From Sphingomonas lacunae (GTDB taxonomy: Bacteria; Pseudomonadota; Alphaproteobacteria; Sphingomonadales; Sphingomonadaceae): a DNA stretch of 64,000 bases. Shown here piece after piece: positions 16,219 through 36,723 of the stretch. The DNA lies in assembly GCF_012979535.1 (NCBI RefSeq), contig NZ_CP053015.1, positions 620,001 through 684,000 on the forward strand. Reading direction: 5' to 3'. The position numbers were made by a program, and so were the translations under genes. The notes under the pieces were generated by a model, which saw only the letters and a program-made list of their open reading frames with translations, had not been told where the DNA came from and ran no database searches. The number at the start of each line of letters is the position of its first letter. Positions within the stretch are counted from its first letter, which is position 1.

Positions 16219-17151
16219 TCAGAGCTTGCCGGTCAGTTCGGGGACAAGGTTGAAGAGATCACCGACCAGACCAAGGTCTGCCACCTGGAAGATGGGGGCG
16301 TCTTCATCCTTGTTGATCGCAATGATCGTCTTGGAATCCTTCATGCCGGCAAGGTGCTGGATCGCGCCCGAGATGCCGACGGCGATATAGACTTCCGGCG
16401 CGACGATCTTGCCGGTCTGGCCGACCTGATAGTCGTTGGGGACATAGCCGGCATCGACCGCGGCGCGGCTGGCGCCGACGCCTGCGCCGAGCTTGTCGGC
16501 CAGCGGCACGATGACTTCCTCGAACTTTTCAGCCGAGCCCAGCGCACGACCGCCCGAGACGATGATCTTGGCCGAGGTGAGTTCCGGACGTTCGGACTTG
16601 GCGATCTCCTCGCCAACGAACTGGGTCACGCCGGTGTCGCCGGTGGAGGCGACGGCTTCCACCGTGCCGCTGCCACCTTCGCGCGCCGCCTTGTCAAAGG
16701 CCGTACCGCGCACGGTGACAACCAGCTTGGCGTCAGAGCTTTCGACAGTGGCGATGGCGTTGCCTGCGTAAATCGGGCGGGTGAAGGTCTTCGGGCCTTC
16801 AACCGAGAGGATTTCGCTGACCTGCATGACATCGAGCAGAGCGGCGACACGTGGCGCAATGTTCTTGCCAGATGTGGTGGCAGGCGCGACGAACGCATCA
16901 TGGCTGTCCATCAGACCCGCAACCAACGGCGCAACATTTTCCGCCAAGCCGTTGGCGTAGGCAGCATCATCGGCAACATGCACCTTGCCGACGCCAGCGA
17001 TCTTGGCCGCGGCATCAGCGACAGCACCCACACCCTGGCCAGCAACCAGCAGGTGGACTTCGCCCAACTTTGAGGCGGCAGTGATGGCGGAAAGGGTGGC
17101 GTCCTTGACGGCGGCGCCGTCATGTTCGACCCAAACGAGAGTCTTGGTCAT
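16219..17151 (-). CDS. etfA: electron transfer flavoprotein, alpha subunit
   Basis: The 310 aa subunit pairs with EtfB to carry electrons from acyl-CoA dehydrogenases to ETF:quinone oxidoreductase. The start is ATG 17151, two bases from the end of etfB. The N-terminal domain begins [12 protein letters not shown]. The C-terminal FAD-binding domain shows the family consensus in [28 protein letters not shown] and [19 protein letters not shown], followed by [16 protein letters not shown] and a terminal [10 protein letters not shown]. All FAD contacts recognisable by eye are intact. It ends before the strong terminator at 16154-16192. The three acyl-CoA dehydrogenases in this window would be its electron donors. 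Confidence 0.96.
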
Positions 17152-17152
17152 G

Positions 17153-17905
17153 TCAGGCAACTCCCATCGCTTTGAGCTTTTCAACCAGCGTATCAACATC
17201 GGGCACCTTGATGCCGGCGCTGCGCTGAGCGGGCTCGGTAACCTTCAGGGTCTTGAGCCGCGGCGCCACATCCACGCCGAAATCAGCAGGCGATTTGGTC
17301 GCCAGCGGCTTTGACTTGGCCTTCATGATATTGGGCAGCGACGGATAGCGCGGCTCGTTGAGACGCAGATCGGTGGTGATGATGGCGGGCAGGCTGACGT
17401 TGACAGTCTGGAGACCGCCGTCGATTTCGCGCTTCACGGTCGCCTTGCCACCATCGACCGAAACCTCGTTGGCAAAGGTCGCCTGACCCCAGCCGGTGAG
17501 GGCACCGAGCATCTGGCCAGTCTGGTTGCTGTCATCGTCGATCGCCTGCTTGCCAAGGATGACAAGCTGCGGCGCTTCTTCGTCGGCAATCGCCTTCAAA
17601 AGCTTGGCAACCGCCAGCGGCTCAACTTCTACGCCATCGTCAACCTGGACGAGAATGGCGCGGTCAGCACCCATGGCGAGTGCAGTGCGGAGCGTTTCCT
17701 GCGCCTTGGCCGGGCCGATGCTGGCGACGACGATCTCTGTCGCAACGCCCTTTTCCTTGAGACGGATCGCTTCTTCGACAGCGATTTCATCAAAGGGGTT
17801 CATCGACATTTTGACATTGGCGAGATCAACGCCCGTGCCGTCCGACTTGACGCGGGGTTTGACGTTGTAATCGAGCACCCGCTTGACGGGGACGAGGATC
17901 TTCAT
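17153..17905 (-). CDS. etfB: electron transfer flavoprotein, beta subunit
   Basis: The 250 aa AMP-binding subunit of ETF. ATG 17905 is chosen because AGGGAG lies about 8 bases upstream and the protein then begins [16 protein letters not shown], the usual EtfB start. Other family features are [19 protein letters not shown] (split), [26 protein letters not shown] (split) and the recognition-loop region [18 protein letters not shown], containing the conserved Leu and Lys. It is immediately followed by etfA. The leader contains two overlapping LiuR-like boxes at 17943-17964, 38 bp before the start. That suggests control by a regulator of branched-chain amino acid or fatty-acid catabolism. Confidence 0.96.
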
Positions 17906-17942
17906 GGGTACACTCCCTGATGATTCAATGGACCGCAACTAG

Positions 17943-17964
17943 TTGACGTTCACGTTAACGTCAA
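17943..17964. promoter_or_regulatory. double LiuR-like operator before etfB
   Basis: The 22 bp palindrome has arms TTGACGTT (17943-17950) and AACGTCAA (17957-17964). It contains two overlapping 16-mers of the form TTnACGTnnACGTnAA, at 17943-17958 and 17949-17964. That is the form I recall for MerR-family LiuR boxes, which often precede etf and branched-chain catabolic genes. Confidence 0.55.
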
Positions 17965-18005: not shown

Positions 18006-19205
18006 TCAAGCAACCTTGCGGACTTCAGCCACGATCTTCTTCGCCGCGTCGCCAAGATCATTGGCCGGCACGATGGCGAGACCGCTCTCGGACAGGATCT
18101 TCTTGCCCTGCTCGACATTGGTTCCTTCGAGGCGGACGACCAGTGGCACCGACAGGTTCACTTCCTTGGCTGCGGCGACAATGCCGTCGGCAATGATGTC
18201 GCACTTCATGATCCCGCCAAAGATGTTGACGAGAATGCCCTTGACCGCCGGATCCTTGAGGATGATCTTGAACGCGGCCGTCACCTTTTCCTTCGAGGCG
18301 CCGCCACCGACGTCGAGGAAGTTGGCGGGGAATTCGCCGTTGAGCTTGATGATGTCCATCGTCGCCATGGCAAGACCGGCGCCATTGACCATGCAGCCGA
18401 TGTTGCCATCAAGCTTGATGTAGGCGAGGTCATATTCGCTTGCCTCAACCTCCGCAGGGTCTTCTTCGGTCACATCGCGCAGCTCGGCGATATCCTTGTG
18501 GCGGAACATGGCGTTGCCGTCGAACGCCACCTTGGCGTCGAGGACGAGGATCTTGCCGTCCTTGGTCTGCACCAGCGGGTTGATTTCGCACATTTCCATG
18601 TCGGTCGCGATGAAGGCTTCATAGAGCTTCTTCACCGTGTCCTCGGCCTGGGCAGCGAGGTCACCCTCGAGCTTGAGCGCGGCCGATGCCTTCTTCGCAT
18701 CAGCGTCGGTCAGGCCGGTGGCCGGATCGATGGTCAGCGTGGTGATCTTTTCCGGCGTGTCATGAGCGACAGTTTCAATGTCCATCCCGCCTTCGGTCGA
18801 AACGATCATCGCGACGCGGCTCGACTTGCGGTCAACCAGCAGCGACAGGTAAAATTCTTTTTCGATGTCGGCACCGTCGGTGATGTACAAGCGGTTGACC
18901 TGCTTGCCAGCTTCGCCAGTCTGGATCGTGACCAAAGTGTTGCCGAGCATGTCAGTGGCGTGGGCGCGCACTTCATCGAGACTGAAGGCCAGACGGACGC
19001 CGCCCTTGGCATCGGCAGGCAGTTCCTTGAACTTGCCCTTGCCGCGGCCACCGGCGTGGATCTGCGATTTCACGACATAGAGCGGCCCAGGCAGGCGCTT
19101 GGCGGCTTCCACCGCTTCCTCGACCGACAGGGCGGCATAGCCCGCAGGGATGGCGACGCCAAATTTCGCCAGCAGTTCCTTGGCCTGATATTCATGAATG
19201 TTCAT
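18006..19205 (-). CDS. sucC: succinate-CoA ligase (ADP-forming), beta subunit
   Basis: The 399 aa ATP-grasp subunit of succinyl-CoA synthetase, a TCA-cycle enzyme in the cytoplasm. The start [17 protein letters not shown] is diagnostic, with GGGAAGG 6 bases upstream of ATG 19205. [12 protein letters not shown] (48-59) belongs to the ATP-grasp fold, EINPL provides Mg-nucleotide ligands, and [10 protein letters not shown] is the family signature near the C-terminus. Unlike many bacteria, no sucD follows; etfB lies 100 bp downstream on the same strand. The alpha subunit must be encoded elsewhere. Confidence 0.97.
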
Positions 19206-21067: not shown

Positions 21068-24000
21068 CTATCGGCGCCTCGCCGGCGACCGGCCTGGCAC
21101 GGTAATGGTACCCACCAGTTGCCGCGATCCGCTGTCCTCGGTCCGCATTTCGAGATCCATCTGTTCTTCAGTCTGGTTGGGCCTACCAAAGTTGCGAACA
21201 ATGCGGACGCTGAGGCCCGATGGCCCATTGGGGTTTGACCGGTCCGCCGCATAGGTATTGGCACGAATGGTATAGGTGCCAGGCGCGGCCTGGCGCAGCA
21301 GGAACTCCTCTGGCCCATAGCCATTGGTAACATCGGCGGTCAGCCGCCCGCCAGTGGCCGACAGCGCATGGTAATAGCCGACCTCCTCTCCGTTGGGCTG
21401 TGTCACCCAGAGATCAAGGTCAGTACGCGGCGTGTTCCATTCCATCACGATTCGGATATCGGTATCGAGCAGGGCCACAAGCCGCTGCGGGAGCGCATGC
21501 TCAGTGCCACCAAGCGCGCGATAACGGGCGACCGCTGCATTGGCGTCCATGAGCGCAGTCTGCACAAAACCGTGCGGTTGTTCGCGCCGAACGGTCAACA
21601 CGGCATCGGCCAGCAGGGCGATGGCGCGGTGCAGATCGGCCTTGGCAGCATCGGTGCGACCGGCGGCCCGATGCGCTTCGGCGCGCTGCATCAGCAACAC
21701 CGCCATGGTGCGCAGCGGCTGGGGACGCTCATTTTCCCGGTCGACCAGCTGTTCAAGCAGGGCCAGCGCGCGGTCCAAGTCGCCATAACGTTGAAGGCGT
21801 GCCGCAACAATCGAGAGCGTCTGATTGTCCCGCGTGGGCAGATCAAGCGCGGCTTCGGCCGCACGGCGCGCTTCGACCGCGCGCCCCTTGCGCCAATGCC
21901 ATTCGGCCAGATCGAACCAGAAGATCGGCAGCACACCATTGGCGATCCGCTGCCTGTCCACTTCCGCCGCCCAGTCGGTACCGGCCGCATCGAAGGCAGC
22001 GATCCACGGCCGGCCGGGGTTCCAATCGGCGGTTTCAATCGCGGCGTCCTCACGAATGCCGGTGTTGGCGCCGGGGGTGGCCGAACCAGCCGCGCTGTCG
22101 GCGTCAGCAGACACTCCGGCCGCATCAACGGTCGTAATCGCCACAGGCGTATCTTGCGCCCGTCCCTCAACCCGGTGGCCCGTCACAACGATGTTTTCTG
22201 GGGTCGCCTCGTCGGGCATCGCCATGACTGGCGGTGGCGGAGCCATCGGCGGCGGCGGTGGCGGCGGCGGCGGTGGTGGAGGAGGCGGTGATGGCGGCGG
22301 GGGCGGTGCCGGGACCGATGACGGCACCGGCCCTGCATTCCGCCGTGGACGGCCACCGGCAGGTCGGCTGTCCTGTTCCTCTTCGGCCGTTCCTTCGGAG
22401 TTGCCCGTCAGCGGTTCGAACTTGGTCGCCCACCAGTCACGCACCTGCTGCCATTCGTTGGCAACCACTGTAATCCGATTCTGTTGCGCGGTTTCGCGGG
22501 CCTGATCCGCACTGGCGCGCAAGGCAAGGTACCGGTCGCGCAACGTTTTGGGGTAACTGTCAGGCGGCGGAATATTAGCCTCGACATAATCCGCCGGTGC
22601 CTCCAGCACGATGAAGGAGGCTAGCGGACTGGCCACCGAATAGCGCCGCGACAGGGCAACGAGGTCTGCTGTGCGCATGTCATTGCTTTGCGCGGCTATC
22701 CGGCGCGACGCCCAGAGTGCACCTGGGCCCGAGAAGGCTGGTGCACTGACGGAGGGCTGACTGTAACTGCGCACCACAGCTGTGCCACGCATCAGCCGCA
22801 CATCTCCCGACCGGGGCATGGGACCAACCAGCCGGAATCGGCCTTCGCCAGCAGCGATCCGGACAGCCTCTATGGTCCGGCCTTCGCTATCCACCAGCCG
22901 GCCAATATCGCTGCCGCGCCGAGCCATAGCCGCCAGCGCCTGTTCCCGACTGCTGCTGCCCAGTTCGATGAGTGATCCCCCCGAACGGTCCGCCACTGAC
23001 GCCAGCCAGCCCCGATCAACTTCGCGACCCGAAGCCAGAGCGATGGTGCGGCAAGGCAAGGCGAAATCAGCGCGGCCATCAATCGTCGCGCGGCCATCAC
23101 TAACCAGAATGCAAAGGGCGCCCGGTTCAATAGTCAGGCCGCTCAACACCGAAAAGCTGGTCCCTCCACCATAGTGGATGCTGTCGAGCGCGGTGCCAAG
23201 TGCCCCCGCATCGCCGGGGCGCAATGTTTCTGCTCCACCGCTATCAAACAGGGTCAGGCCGGCGATGCGTGCGCCGGTTGCTTCGATGTGGGCCAGAAGC
23301 AGGGCCTTTTCACCGGACAGGTCATCGTCGACGCGACTGACCGAACGGTCCCAGATGATATGAACGGGTGGGGTGCCGCCCTGCCCCGGTCCGTCTGCAG
23401 GCAGATGATCCTCAAGGTCAAAGAACCGGTCACCGTTGGCGTGCGCCGAAACCAGTATCAACTCGCGCCGCGCTGGCAGGGGCAAGCGGAATTCGCCGCC
23501 GAGTCGAACATTCCAGGCCTCGACACTGAGCTGCCCGTCCTGCCACTGCCCTGAAACGCCTGACGGCAGCGAAGCCGCCGGTGGCGTGCCATCATCACTG
23601 GTGATGCGCATGGTGAGCCGCCCGACCGGTCCCGATGGCCGCATCGGCAGCACATACCCTGCCTGCGGATCAATCGGCGACGTCATGGTCAGTCGGATGG
23701 TCCGGCTGCCCCGCGCTGGAATCGGAAAAATGCGTGTTGAAAAGCGATCCGACCAACTGACTTCGGCCAGACCGGGGTCAATCTGCTGCACAACGCGGCG
23801 GGCATAGGCTTCGCGCGCCTGATCGCGTCCGGCAAGAACCCCGTCGACAAGATCCGGACCGACGTCGAGGGCGTAACCGGTGACAACCGAACCGGCGGGC
23901 ATATCGAACAGGAAATCGCCCTCCAGCACGTCATGGCCGGCATTGCGAAACGTCGCGGTAATCCGCGTCTCCGCGATGCTGCCGCGCAACCTGACCTGAA

Positions 24001-24205
24001 GGTCGAGCACCTCGATCGCAAGATTCTGGCTGGCAGACGCGTCCGATCGCACCCCGCGGACATGGGCAGACAAGCGCAGAGTGGCTTGAGGATCTGCCTG
24101 TTGTTGCGGTGGCGGCGCGGGTCGGCGCTGAGCAAGTGCCGGCGAAGCGAGGAGGGGAACAAGCGCCGCCAATCCAGTCGTGAGCCATAGGTGACGATTG
24201 CGCAT
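21068..24205 (-). CDS. large secreted VIT/vWA/DUF2135 protein with polyproline linker
   Basis: The start is ATG 24205, with GGGGAG 8 bases upstream; the product has 1045 aa. A Sec signal peptide ends ALA-Q near residue 26. A VIT domain (about 35-170) includes TRITATFRNAGHDVLEGDF and a Gln-rich DQAREAYARRVV stretch. A vWA-like domain follows (about 240-410) with WDRSVSR resembling a DxSxS metal-adhesion site. Next come a disordered polyproline run (about 630-660) and a segment with ENIVVTGHRV. A helical TPR-like region (about 740-870) and a C-terminal DUF2135 domain (MEWNTPRTDLDLWVTQPNGE ...) complete it. VIT-vWA-DUF2135 proteins are known as large exported proteins of unclear role. It lies downstream of the phosphatase gene on the same strand, after a gap of about 150 bp. 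Confidence 0.8.
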   Translation of the reverse strand: MRNRHLWLTTGLAALVPLLASPALAQRRPAPPPQQQADPQATLRLSAHVRGVRSDASASQNLAIEVLDLQVRLRGSIAETRITATFRNAGHDVLEGDFLFDMPAGSVVTGYALDVGPDLVDGVLAGRDQAREAYARRVVQQIDPGLAEVSWSDRFSTRIFPIPARGSRTIRLTMTSPIDPQAGYVLPMRPSGPVGRLTMRITSDDGTPPAASLPSGVSGQWQDGQLSVEAWNVRLGGEFRLPLPARRELILVSAHANGDRFFDLEDHLPADGPGQGGTPPVHIIWDRSVSRVDDDLSGEKALLLAHIEATGARIAGLTLFDSGGAETLRPGDAGALGTALDSIHYGGGTSFSVLSGLTIEPGALCILVSDGRATIDGRADFALPCRTIALASGREVDRGWLASVADRSGGSLIELGSSSREQALAAMARRGSDIGRLVDSEGRTIEAVRIAAGEGRFRLVGPMPRSGDVRLMRGTAVVRSYSQPSVSAPAFSGPGALWASRRIAAQSNDMRTADLVALSRRYSVASPLASFIVLEAPADYVEANIPPPDSYPKTLRDRYLALRASADQARETAQQNRITVVANEWQQVRDWWATKFEPLTGNSEGTAEEEQDSRPAGGRPRRNAGPVPSSVPAPPPPPSPPPPPPPPPPPPPPMAPPPPVMAMPDEATPENIVVTGHRVEGRAQDTPVAITTVDAAGVSADADSAAGSATPGANTGIREDAAIETADWNPGRPWIAAFDAAGTDWAAEVDRQRIANGVLPIFWFDLAEWHWRKGRAVEARRAAEAALDLPTRDNQTLSIVAARLQRYGDLDRALALLEQLVDRENERPQPLRTMAVLLMQRAEAHRAAGRTDAAKADLHRAIALLADAVLTVRREQPHGFVQTALMDANAAVARYRALGGTEHALPQRLVALLDTDIRIVMEWNTPRTDLDLWVTQPNGEEVGYYHALSATGGRLTADVTNGYGPEEFLLRQAAPGTYTIRANTYAADRSNPNGPSGLSVRIVRNFGRPNQTEEQMDLEMRTEDSGSRQLVGTITVPGRSPARRR
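22226..22314. repeat. GGC/GGT-rich microsatellite coding for polyproline
   Basis: A run of GGC, GGT, GGA and GGG triplets on the + strand, encoding about 25 prolines interrupted by Ser, Met and Ala in the opposite-strand VIT/DUF2135 protein. Such tracts are prone to length variation and polymerase slippage. Confidence 0.8.
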
Positions 24206-24355
24206 CCTTAATCTCCCCAGCCAGCTTCGCCCAGCCGCCTCATCCCGACAGTGCCAGAATTTCACTTTGCGCCTGTAGGAAAGATGAACGGCGAGCAGGC
24301 CGGAAAGTCGACCCCGCTGCCTCGGCACCATTCAACATGTTCGGGCAATGACCTA

Positions 24356-35577: not shown

Positions 35578-36723
35578 TCAGTCGCGGGTATCGATGGATA
35601 CTTCCATCGACAGGCCGACGCGCAGCGGATGGGCCGCCAAATCCTGTGGATTGATGGCGATACGGACAGGTACCCGCTGCACCACCTTGACCCAGTTCCC
35701 GGTGGCATTCTGTGCCGGGATGATGGCAAAGGCCGCGCCGGTACCACCGCCAATGCCGACCACCTGTCCGCGATAGACAACATCTCCACCGTACAGATCA
35801 GAGACCAGTTCCACTGGCTGACCAATGCGGACGCTTCGCAACTGCACTTCCTTGAGATTGGCGTCGACATAAACATTGCCGACAGGAACGATGGTCATGA
35901 TCGGCGTGCCGGGCGCCAGACGTTGCCCGATTTGCACCCGCCGCTGGGTGACAACACCGGTCACCGGTGCGCGGATGACAGTGCGTTCAAGCGCCAGTCG
36001 CGCCGCGTCTACACGGGCGCGGGCTGCAGCGACCGTCGGGTCGGTATCCATGTCTCCCTGACCGGTGATGACACGATTGACCGCCAATTGTCCCTGTGAC
36101 GAAGCAGTTGTGGCTCTGGCCGCAGCGACAGTTGCGCGAGCACGATCCAGACTGGCGTCGGCGGCTGCCAGTCCTGAGCGGGCCTGAACCAGTTCCTCAG
36201 CCGAGACAGCACCACTGGCGGCAAGTGCCTGCCGGCGCTGAAGCGCATCAGCTGCTGCAGCGCGATACGCCATGGCGGCTGCAAGAGCAGCCTCTGCCTG
36301 TTGCACGGAGGCGTTCGATGCACCCACCTGCGCGCTCAGGGACGTGCCACTGGCAAGCGCCTGACGATATTGCTGACGGGCCTGGGCCAAGGCAGCTTCG
36401 GCAGCGGCCAGTTCGACACGAGCGTCAGCATCGTCCAAAATGACCAGCACGTCGCCGGCTTTGACCGACTGTGTATCGACCACTTTCACTTCCTTGACTG
36501 CCCCCGCAACGAGCGGCGTCACCTGCGCAAGATCGGCCGCGACATAGGCATTGCCGCTGTTAACGATGCCGCGTTGGGTTACGAACCACCAGCCTACGGT
36601 AACCGTCGCCACAGCCACCACAATGATCGCAAAGCGCCAGAGCAATTGGCGACGGCGGGCATGATTGGAGGAGGCCTTGTTTGCCACGTCGAGGGCTGCA
36701 GGAGACGGAGCTGTATCAGTCAC
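35578..36723 (-). CDS. emrA: EmrA-like membrane fusion protein (HlyD family)
   Basis: The 381 aa adaptor most likely starts at GTG 36723, overlapping the end of the outer-membrane factor gene by 8 bp. One transmembrane helix (LLWRFAIIVVAVATVTVGWW) anchors it. The periplasmic part has a biotinyl-lipoyl half VTPLVAGAVKEVKVVDTQSV, then a long Ala/Gln-rich coiled-coil hairpin, and a second lipoyl half VIRAPVTGVVTQRRVQIGQ. A beta-barrel region including PVELVSDLYGGDVVYRGQV follows. It bridges EmrB to the outer-membrane channel. The order outer-membrane factor, adaptor, pump makes a complete tripartite efflux operon. Confidence 0.92.
   Translation of the reverse strand: MTDTAPSPAALDVANKASSNHARRRQLLWRFAIIVVAVATVTVGWWFVTQRGIVNSGNAYVAADLAQVTPLVAGAVKEVKVVDTQSVKAGDVLVILDDADARVELAAAEAALAQARQQYRQALASGTSLSAQVGASNASVQQAEAALAAAMAYRAAAADALQRRQALAASGAVSAEELVQARSGLAAADASLDRARATVAAARATTASSQGQLAVNRVITGQGDMDTDPTVAAARARVDAARLALERTVIRAPVTGVVTQRRVQIGQRLAPGTPIMTIVPVGNVYVDANLKEVQLRSVRIGQPVELVSDLYGGDVVYRGQVVGIGGGTGAAFAIIPAQNATGNWVKVVQRVPVRIAINPQDLAAHPLRVGLSMEVSIDTRD

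Follow-up and report, generated by a model that had tools for sequence, protein, structure and literature searches.

A LiuR-type double operator in the predicted etfBA promoter of Sphingomonas lacunae and its probable acyl-CoA oxidation repressor

The operator upstream of etfBA

A 22-bp sequence that resembles two overlapping LiuR boxes lies upstream of etfBA in Sphingomonas lacunae, which raises the question of which regulator reads it and whether that regulator governs leucine catabolism or another pathway. LiuR (GnyR), a repressor of the MerR family, controls the degradation of branched-chain amino acids, and the consensus of its box is of the TTnACGTnnACGTnAA type. LiuR regulons are reported in 103 or 104 proteobacterial genomes (PMC5343134), and in Pseudomonas aeruginosa LiuR represses liu (PMC8871633). 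The analysis covered a 64,000-nt stretch of DNA (the window), the single 2.98 Mb contig of the genome that contains it, and the genomes of relatives. Very probably, the 22-mer is bound by a repressor of fatty-acid breakdown, a relative of LiuR that is encoded elsewhere in the genome. The features of the locus, in window coordinates, are:

17943..17964, no strand assigned: 22-bp double operator TTGACGTTCACGTTAACGTCAA, with three ACGT half-sites at 6-bp steps (from the sequence and an identical 22-mer before a MerR gene)
17949..17964, minus strand: first 16-bp box in the gene direction, TTGACGTTAACGTGAA, overlapping the predicted -35
17943..17958, minus strand: second 16-bp box, TTAACGTGAACGTCAA, filling the remainder of the spacer
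17959..17964, minus strand: predicted -35 hexamer TTGACG (from the sequence; arrangement shared with relatives)
17936..17941, minus strand: predicted -10 hexamer TAGTTG, a weak match, after a 17-nt spacer (from the sequence)
17153..17905, minus strand: etfB, electron transfer flavoprotein (ETF) beta subunit, putative target; best NCBIfam matches of the ETF-beta type
16219..17151, minus strand: etfA, ETF alpha subunit, putative target, presumably in the operon of etfB; NCBIfam models of the ETF-alpha type

In an NCBIfam scan of seven proteins, including both ETF subunits, zero matches rose above the curated cut-offs, and the start of etfA was placed, by inference, at the methionine of MTKTLV. 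The operator sits between a gene ending at 18006, which by eye we take to be sucC, and the start of etfB, both on the minus strand; the ATG of etfB (17905) is 37 nt from the box. The initial annotation had described two overlapping LiuR-like 16-mers, 6 bp apart, within a 22-bp palindrome. The two 16-mers are indeed exact, as TTGACGTTCACGTTAACGTCAA consists of two TTnACGTnnACGTnAA boxes offset by 6 bp, each fitting TTNACGTNNACGTNAA without a mismatch. The palindrome holds for the outer arms (TTGACGT/ACGTCAA), which are perfect, but its symmetry is broken at two inner positions. Across the window, a scan allowing up to two mismatches found three matches, the third (two mismatches) at 35858; shuffled windows had a mean of 0.73 such matches and reached three in 6 of 100 shuffles, but at two mismatches. 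Elsewhere in the window, an ORF of 1087 aa (21068-24331, minus strand) has a long polyproline stretch mid-protein.

A MerR-family regulator behind the same 22-mer

As the initial annotation had stated, the window contains no liuR gene: a PF13411 (MerR) search of it was empty, and the two such genes found in the genome lie at 1.60 and 2.49 Mb. The only other genomic copy of the identical 22-mer (2485709-2485730 of the contig) stands directly before a MerR gene, 1.85 Mb further along the contig than etfBA. The MerR-family LiuR relative that had been proposed as a check is therefore present, with the 22-mer as its apparent own operator. In the gene direction, the operator of etfB reads as the reverse complement of the one before the regulator gene, whose ATG lies 36 nt from the first base of its 22-mer. 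The regulator is a 140-aa protein with MerR_1 (PF13411, 63.2 bits) and MerR-DNA-bind (PF09278, 58.1 bits) domains. Like LiuR, it is thus a MerR-type protein with a TTnACGTnnACGTnAA box before its own gene, and a box with at most one mismatch occurs in 28 of 30 regulator promoters of Sphingomonadaceae. The gene that follows encodes a FadE-type acyl-CoA dehydrogenase of 600 aa; among solved structures, its best matches are 6ijc (739 bits) and 8pns (662 bits).

Operator and promoter geometry

The 6-bp register recurs well beyond this locus. Given a first box, a second one (up to two mismatches) lies at 6 bp in 16 of 28 Sphingomonadaceae regulator promoters (shuffled flanks: mean 2.6, maximum 7), in 17 of 25 etfB sites (mean 2.3, maximum 7) and in 15 of 22 regulator promoters of other families (mean 2.0, maximum 6), a figure that becomes 17 of 22 when any site counts. 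The other-family set comprises 28 regulator loci, one per alphaproteobacterial family, the best-scoring of 65 matching genomes among 115 searched. Further, overlapping 6-bp double boxes precede three of four Burkholderiales regulator genes. A Tepidimonas locus (L222) has them both on the isovaleryl-CoA dehydrogenase (IVD) side of the regulator gene and before the regulator, and an Undibacterium locus (L223) has them on the IVD side and a single box before the regulator; the double register is thus not limited to alphaproteobacteria.

The operator includes the likely -35 hexamer and occupies the 17-nt spacer. At sites beginning TTGAC, a TA follows after exactly 17 nt in 13 of 21 etfB sites, 18 of 26 Sphingomonadaceae regulator sites and 16 of 17 other-family regulator sites, counts that carry no shuffled control. 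This geometry bears on whether the regulator could turn etfBA on as classical MerR activators do, by twisting a long spacer. Its MerR_1 and MerR-DNA-bind domains, and an operator placed between -35 and -10 as described for MerR activators (PMC5045206), would suit such a mechanism. However, the same paper gives spacers of 19-20 bp for these activators, the commonest spacer here is 17 nt, and LiuR is termed a repressor in a Shewanella paper; the spacer length led us to reject activation of this kind, which we regard as unlikely. A -35 hexamer TTGACG followed by an operator-filled 17-nt spacer and a TA suits repression better than activation of the classical MerR type. LiuR is a repressor that a metabolite of its pathway releases, and the promoter geometry here is consistent with repression.

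We favour, as highly probable, an operator that forms part of the etfBA promoter and a LiuR-type MerR repressor of etfBA and acyl-CoA oxidation genes that also represses itself. The box, the regulator, their co-occurrence, the promoter geometry and the target set were established by computation. In the proposed mechanism, a dimer of the MerR protein, or two competing or stacked dimers, would bind the ACGT half-sites and lie over the -35 hexamer as well as the 17-nt spacer, which would keep RNA polymerase off etfBA. An acyl-CoA substrate, when present, would make the protein release the DNA, so that etfBA could be made together with the enzymes on either side of ETF, the acyl-CoA dehydrogenases that feed it and the ETF-ubiquinone oxidoreductase (ETF-QO) that drains it; through the same 22-mer, the regulator would repress its own gene. 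Such regulation is ordinary in kind, and the operator-promoter design is neat and widely shared.

Within this explanation, a single dimer may read the full 22-bp palindrome, with outer ACGT half-sites 12 bp apart, instead of alternative 16-bp boxes. The perfect outer arms argue for it, as do the lengths given in PMC5045206 for MerR and HMRTR sites (22 bp) and CueR-type sites (21 bp); yet the third half-site is absent at many sites, including most places in this genome (see below), and 12 of the 28 Sphingomonadaceae regulator promoters lack a second box at up to two mismatches. We consider the one-dimer reading possible but rather doubtful; sites were chosen by the 16-mer, and its invariance proves nothing on one versus two dimers.

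The geometry also predicts where the transcript should start. In 23 of 26 Sphingomonadaceae regulator genes, an in-frame ATG lies at that position, 35-38 nt from TTGAC, which predicts a leaderless regulator mRNA. In other families an in-frame ATG falls 34-40 nt from TTGAC in 2 of 17 cases, and the script found no in-frame ATG in 5 of 17, so that the leaderless arrangement would be largely confined to Sphingomonadaceae. Tentatively, and with slightly less than an even chance of being right as a whole, these features can be joined into one design: a three-half-site operator moulded onto the promoter, a leaderless regulator gene in Sphingomonadaceae and a built-in ranking of affinities within a fatty-acid regulon. 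The operator, with three ACGT half-sites in a strict 6-bp register, would be widespread for the alphaproteobacterial LiuR-type regulator; TTGACG would double as half-site and -35, with the last of the three half-sites ending at the -10. In this genome, double sites would mark only the regulator and the shared carrier etfBA, and single sites the individual dehydrogenases. The widespread double operator and the apparently leaderless regulator gene were found in none of the searchable literature, which did not include a 2009 paper by Kazakov et al., and a search on leaderless genes in sphingomonads returned no paper.

The target set in the genome

Allowing one mismatch, the whole genome has 18 matches, 7 of which are exact; they fall at 16 places, since two places are double. 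The same pattern read backwards gives 3 matches, so that about 3 of the 16 places must be chance. Double sites occur at etfB and the regulator only, and the remaining 14 places are single. Besides these two, the places with a recognisable gene are, by box position on the contig:

2497789: ETF-QO (named by eye)
812274: acyl-CoA dehydrogenase, with an MFS-like gene opposite
813939: acyl-CoA dehydrogenase
845168: acyl-CoA dehydrogenase, followed by a thiolase-like gene, with an SMP-30-like gene opposite
2457588: acyl-CoA dehydrogenase (named by eye)
1177092: phosphotransferase gene, then acyl-CoA dehydrogenase
2460925 and 2670885: nitronate-monooxygenase (NMO)-type genes
2146802, one mismatch: MoxR-like AAA ATPase (gene at 2145950-2146801; L022:1951-2802)
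335343-335358 (L019:2344), exact, 15 bp upstream: CobS-type cobaltochelatase subunit
294862-294877 (L029:2363), one mismatch, 65 bp upstream: SdhB-like iron-sulfur protein

The boxes at 809410, 1050282 and 2761469 have no clear gene. Where a gene can be recognised, at 13 places, 8 concern acyl-CoA dehydrogenases, the regulator/FadE pair, ETF or ETF-QO (8 of 16 overall). The sites before the CobS, SdhB, MoxR and two NMO-like genes were counted against an acyl-CoA regulon, as were the three places without a clear gene. The CobS box may hint at a connection between cobalamin and the use of propionyl-CoA, unless it is there by chance. The MoxR-like gene has an exact box before it in a genus mate as well (gene at L332:1182-2027).

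Recurrence and co-occurrence in Sphingomonadaceae

At a cut-off of 130 bits, the regulator is present in 73 of 99 Sphingomonadaceae genomes (counted by hand). Where the regulator is present, 15 of 29 etfB loci (28 genomes) have a box with at most one mismatch upstream; where it is absent, 0 of 30 loci (26 genomes) do. The box before etfB thus recurs in related species, which the initial annotation had named as a check; the 14 of 29 loci without a box in regulator-bearing genomes count against the favoured explanation. Similarly, exact boxes anywhere in the genome occur in 36 of 54 regulator-bearing genomes (98 matches when each double site counts as two, against 12 for the control) and in 2 of 26 genomes without the regulator (2 matches; control 3). 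For such co-occurrence counts, Fisher values overstate significance, because the relatives are not independent samples. Two further points weigh against the explanation: 18 of the 54 have no exact box, and one of the two exceptions (G012, 91% complete, no close regulator found) has its exact box (L358:2077) 50 bp before an acyl-CoA-dehydrogenase-like gene. Among the best 80 of 592 named etfB loci, one of which (L036) had no upstream sequence, 25 are boxed at up to one mismatch: 21 from Sphingomonadales, by record title, and 4 from Burkholderiales.

The individual targets recur as well. In five relatives, for which loci were fetched for 26 of 33 exact matches, there are boxed orthologues of the enzyme at 845168 (in two genomes, with 94% and 85% identity) and of those at 812274 (78%), 813939 (75%) and 2457588 (63%), as well as of MoxR (89%), the regulator (73%) and etfB (80%). 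Further boxes precede acyl-CoA-dehydrogenase-like, enoyl-CoA-hydratase-like and several unrelated-looking genes. Boxes before ETF-QO are rare (3 of 28, counting the one in this genome, each with one mismatch), making it weak as a conserved target.

A chance palindrome, or the site of an unrelated ACGT-binding factor, was also weighed. Although ACGT-based palindromes arise easily and the backward pattern has its own 3 matches in the genome, the identical 22-mer at the MerR gene, the recurrence before etfB and the scarcity of boxes, close to none, in genomes that lack the regulator speak against this origin. It was rejected as extremely unlikely on the genome and control counts, the 6-bp register above shuffles and the co-occurrence with the regulator.

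Leucine catabolism and kinship to LiuR

The initial annotation had proposed LiuR-type control of branched-chain amino acid and acyl-CoA catabolism. In its strict form, the regulator would mainly govern leucine and isovaleryl catabolism, and etfBA would be included since IVD reduces ETF. The genome has an IVD of its own (4kto, 556 bits), with carboxylase genes nearby, but this cluster contains no box at up to two mismatches across 14 kb. Likewise, 0 of 29 IVD loci in regulator-bearing relatives have a box (up to one mismatch, 220 nt upstream), where IVD is perhaps not first in its operon everywhere. The boxed enzyme at 845168 scores 369 bits against long-chain acyl-CoA dehydrogenase and 247 bits against IVD, and is thus nearer to the former.

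The regulator's ancestry points the same way. In a quick tree of 62 proteins, built without bootstrap, the four Burkholderiales proteins, two of which have IVD as a near neighbour, form a clade with three IVD-neighbouring alphaproteobacterial proteins (SH-aLRT 99). The regulator is excluded from it and falls inside a 36-row clade (90) with fadE-type, fadA-type or other neighbours. With 34 of 58 forks open and two very long outgroup branches, the tree leaves strict orthology unsettled. The regulator differs from LiuR in lying apart from the clade of IVD-neighbouring LiuR proteins, in its fadE-type neighbour and in a leucine cluster without a box.

Several observations nevertheless favour the strict form. 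The box is the same as LiuR's, and in two of the four Burkholderiales genomes an IVD gene lies within 1.5 kb (as fetched) of the best regulator homologue, with 6-bp double boxes. PMC7238569 describes ILV boxes at liu and ivd genes and a LiuR, linked to butyrate use, in the alphaproteobacterium Rhodospirillum rubrum, which favours leucine control in some alphaproteobacteria. Against the boxless IVD genes, in this genome and in relatives, and the separate clade, the strict form is quite improbable, and a leucine regulon was rejected. The acyl-CoA part of the proposal fits the recognisable targets, which are chiefly acyl-CoA dehydrogenases along with ETF and ETF-QO; the leucine part, examined at IVD loci, is not supported. 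The site is best described as an operator of the LiuR type that belongs to an acyl-CoA oxidation regulon.

Several consequences follow. A LiuR-like box in Sphingomonadaceae need not signal leucine catabolism; in part of this family, ETF, the electron acceptor common to acyl-CoA dehydrogenases, appears tied to the repressor of those dehydrogenases; and three half-sites fused to a promoter offer a simple, testable operator.

Related fatty-acid regulators

PsrA, FadR and FadP are fatty-acid repressors that control beta-oxidation genes, and their protein families and motifs differ from those of the present regulator. Kazakov et al. reportedly assigned LiuR orthologues to fatty-acid degradation in alphaproteobacteria in 2009. 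By that account, these orthologues are alike in class, pathway and motif and probably represent the same type of regulon; if the assignment holds, that type was already predicted, and the regulon here is one more member. Literature searches on MerR-type control of beta-oxidation in sphingomonads, and of fatty-acid degradation in alphaproteobacteria at large, returned no paper.

A second set of LiuR-like MerR proteins in Sphingomonadaceae (L209-L220) is 38-48% identical to the regulator but forms its own clade (99). Their neighbours, named by eye, are of the FadD type near 11 of 12, the FadA type near 11 of 12 and the FadL type near 6 of 12. Of the 26 genomes that lack the fadE-type regulator, 7 encode a protein of this set, and an exact box occurs in 0 of these 7. 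A candidate motif for this set, TTGACGTATAGGTNAA, was seen at L210:8260 and L216:2299 only.
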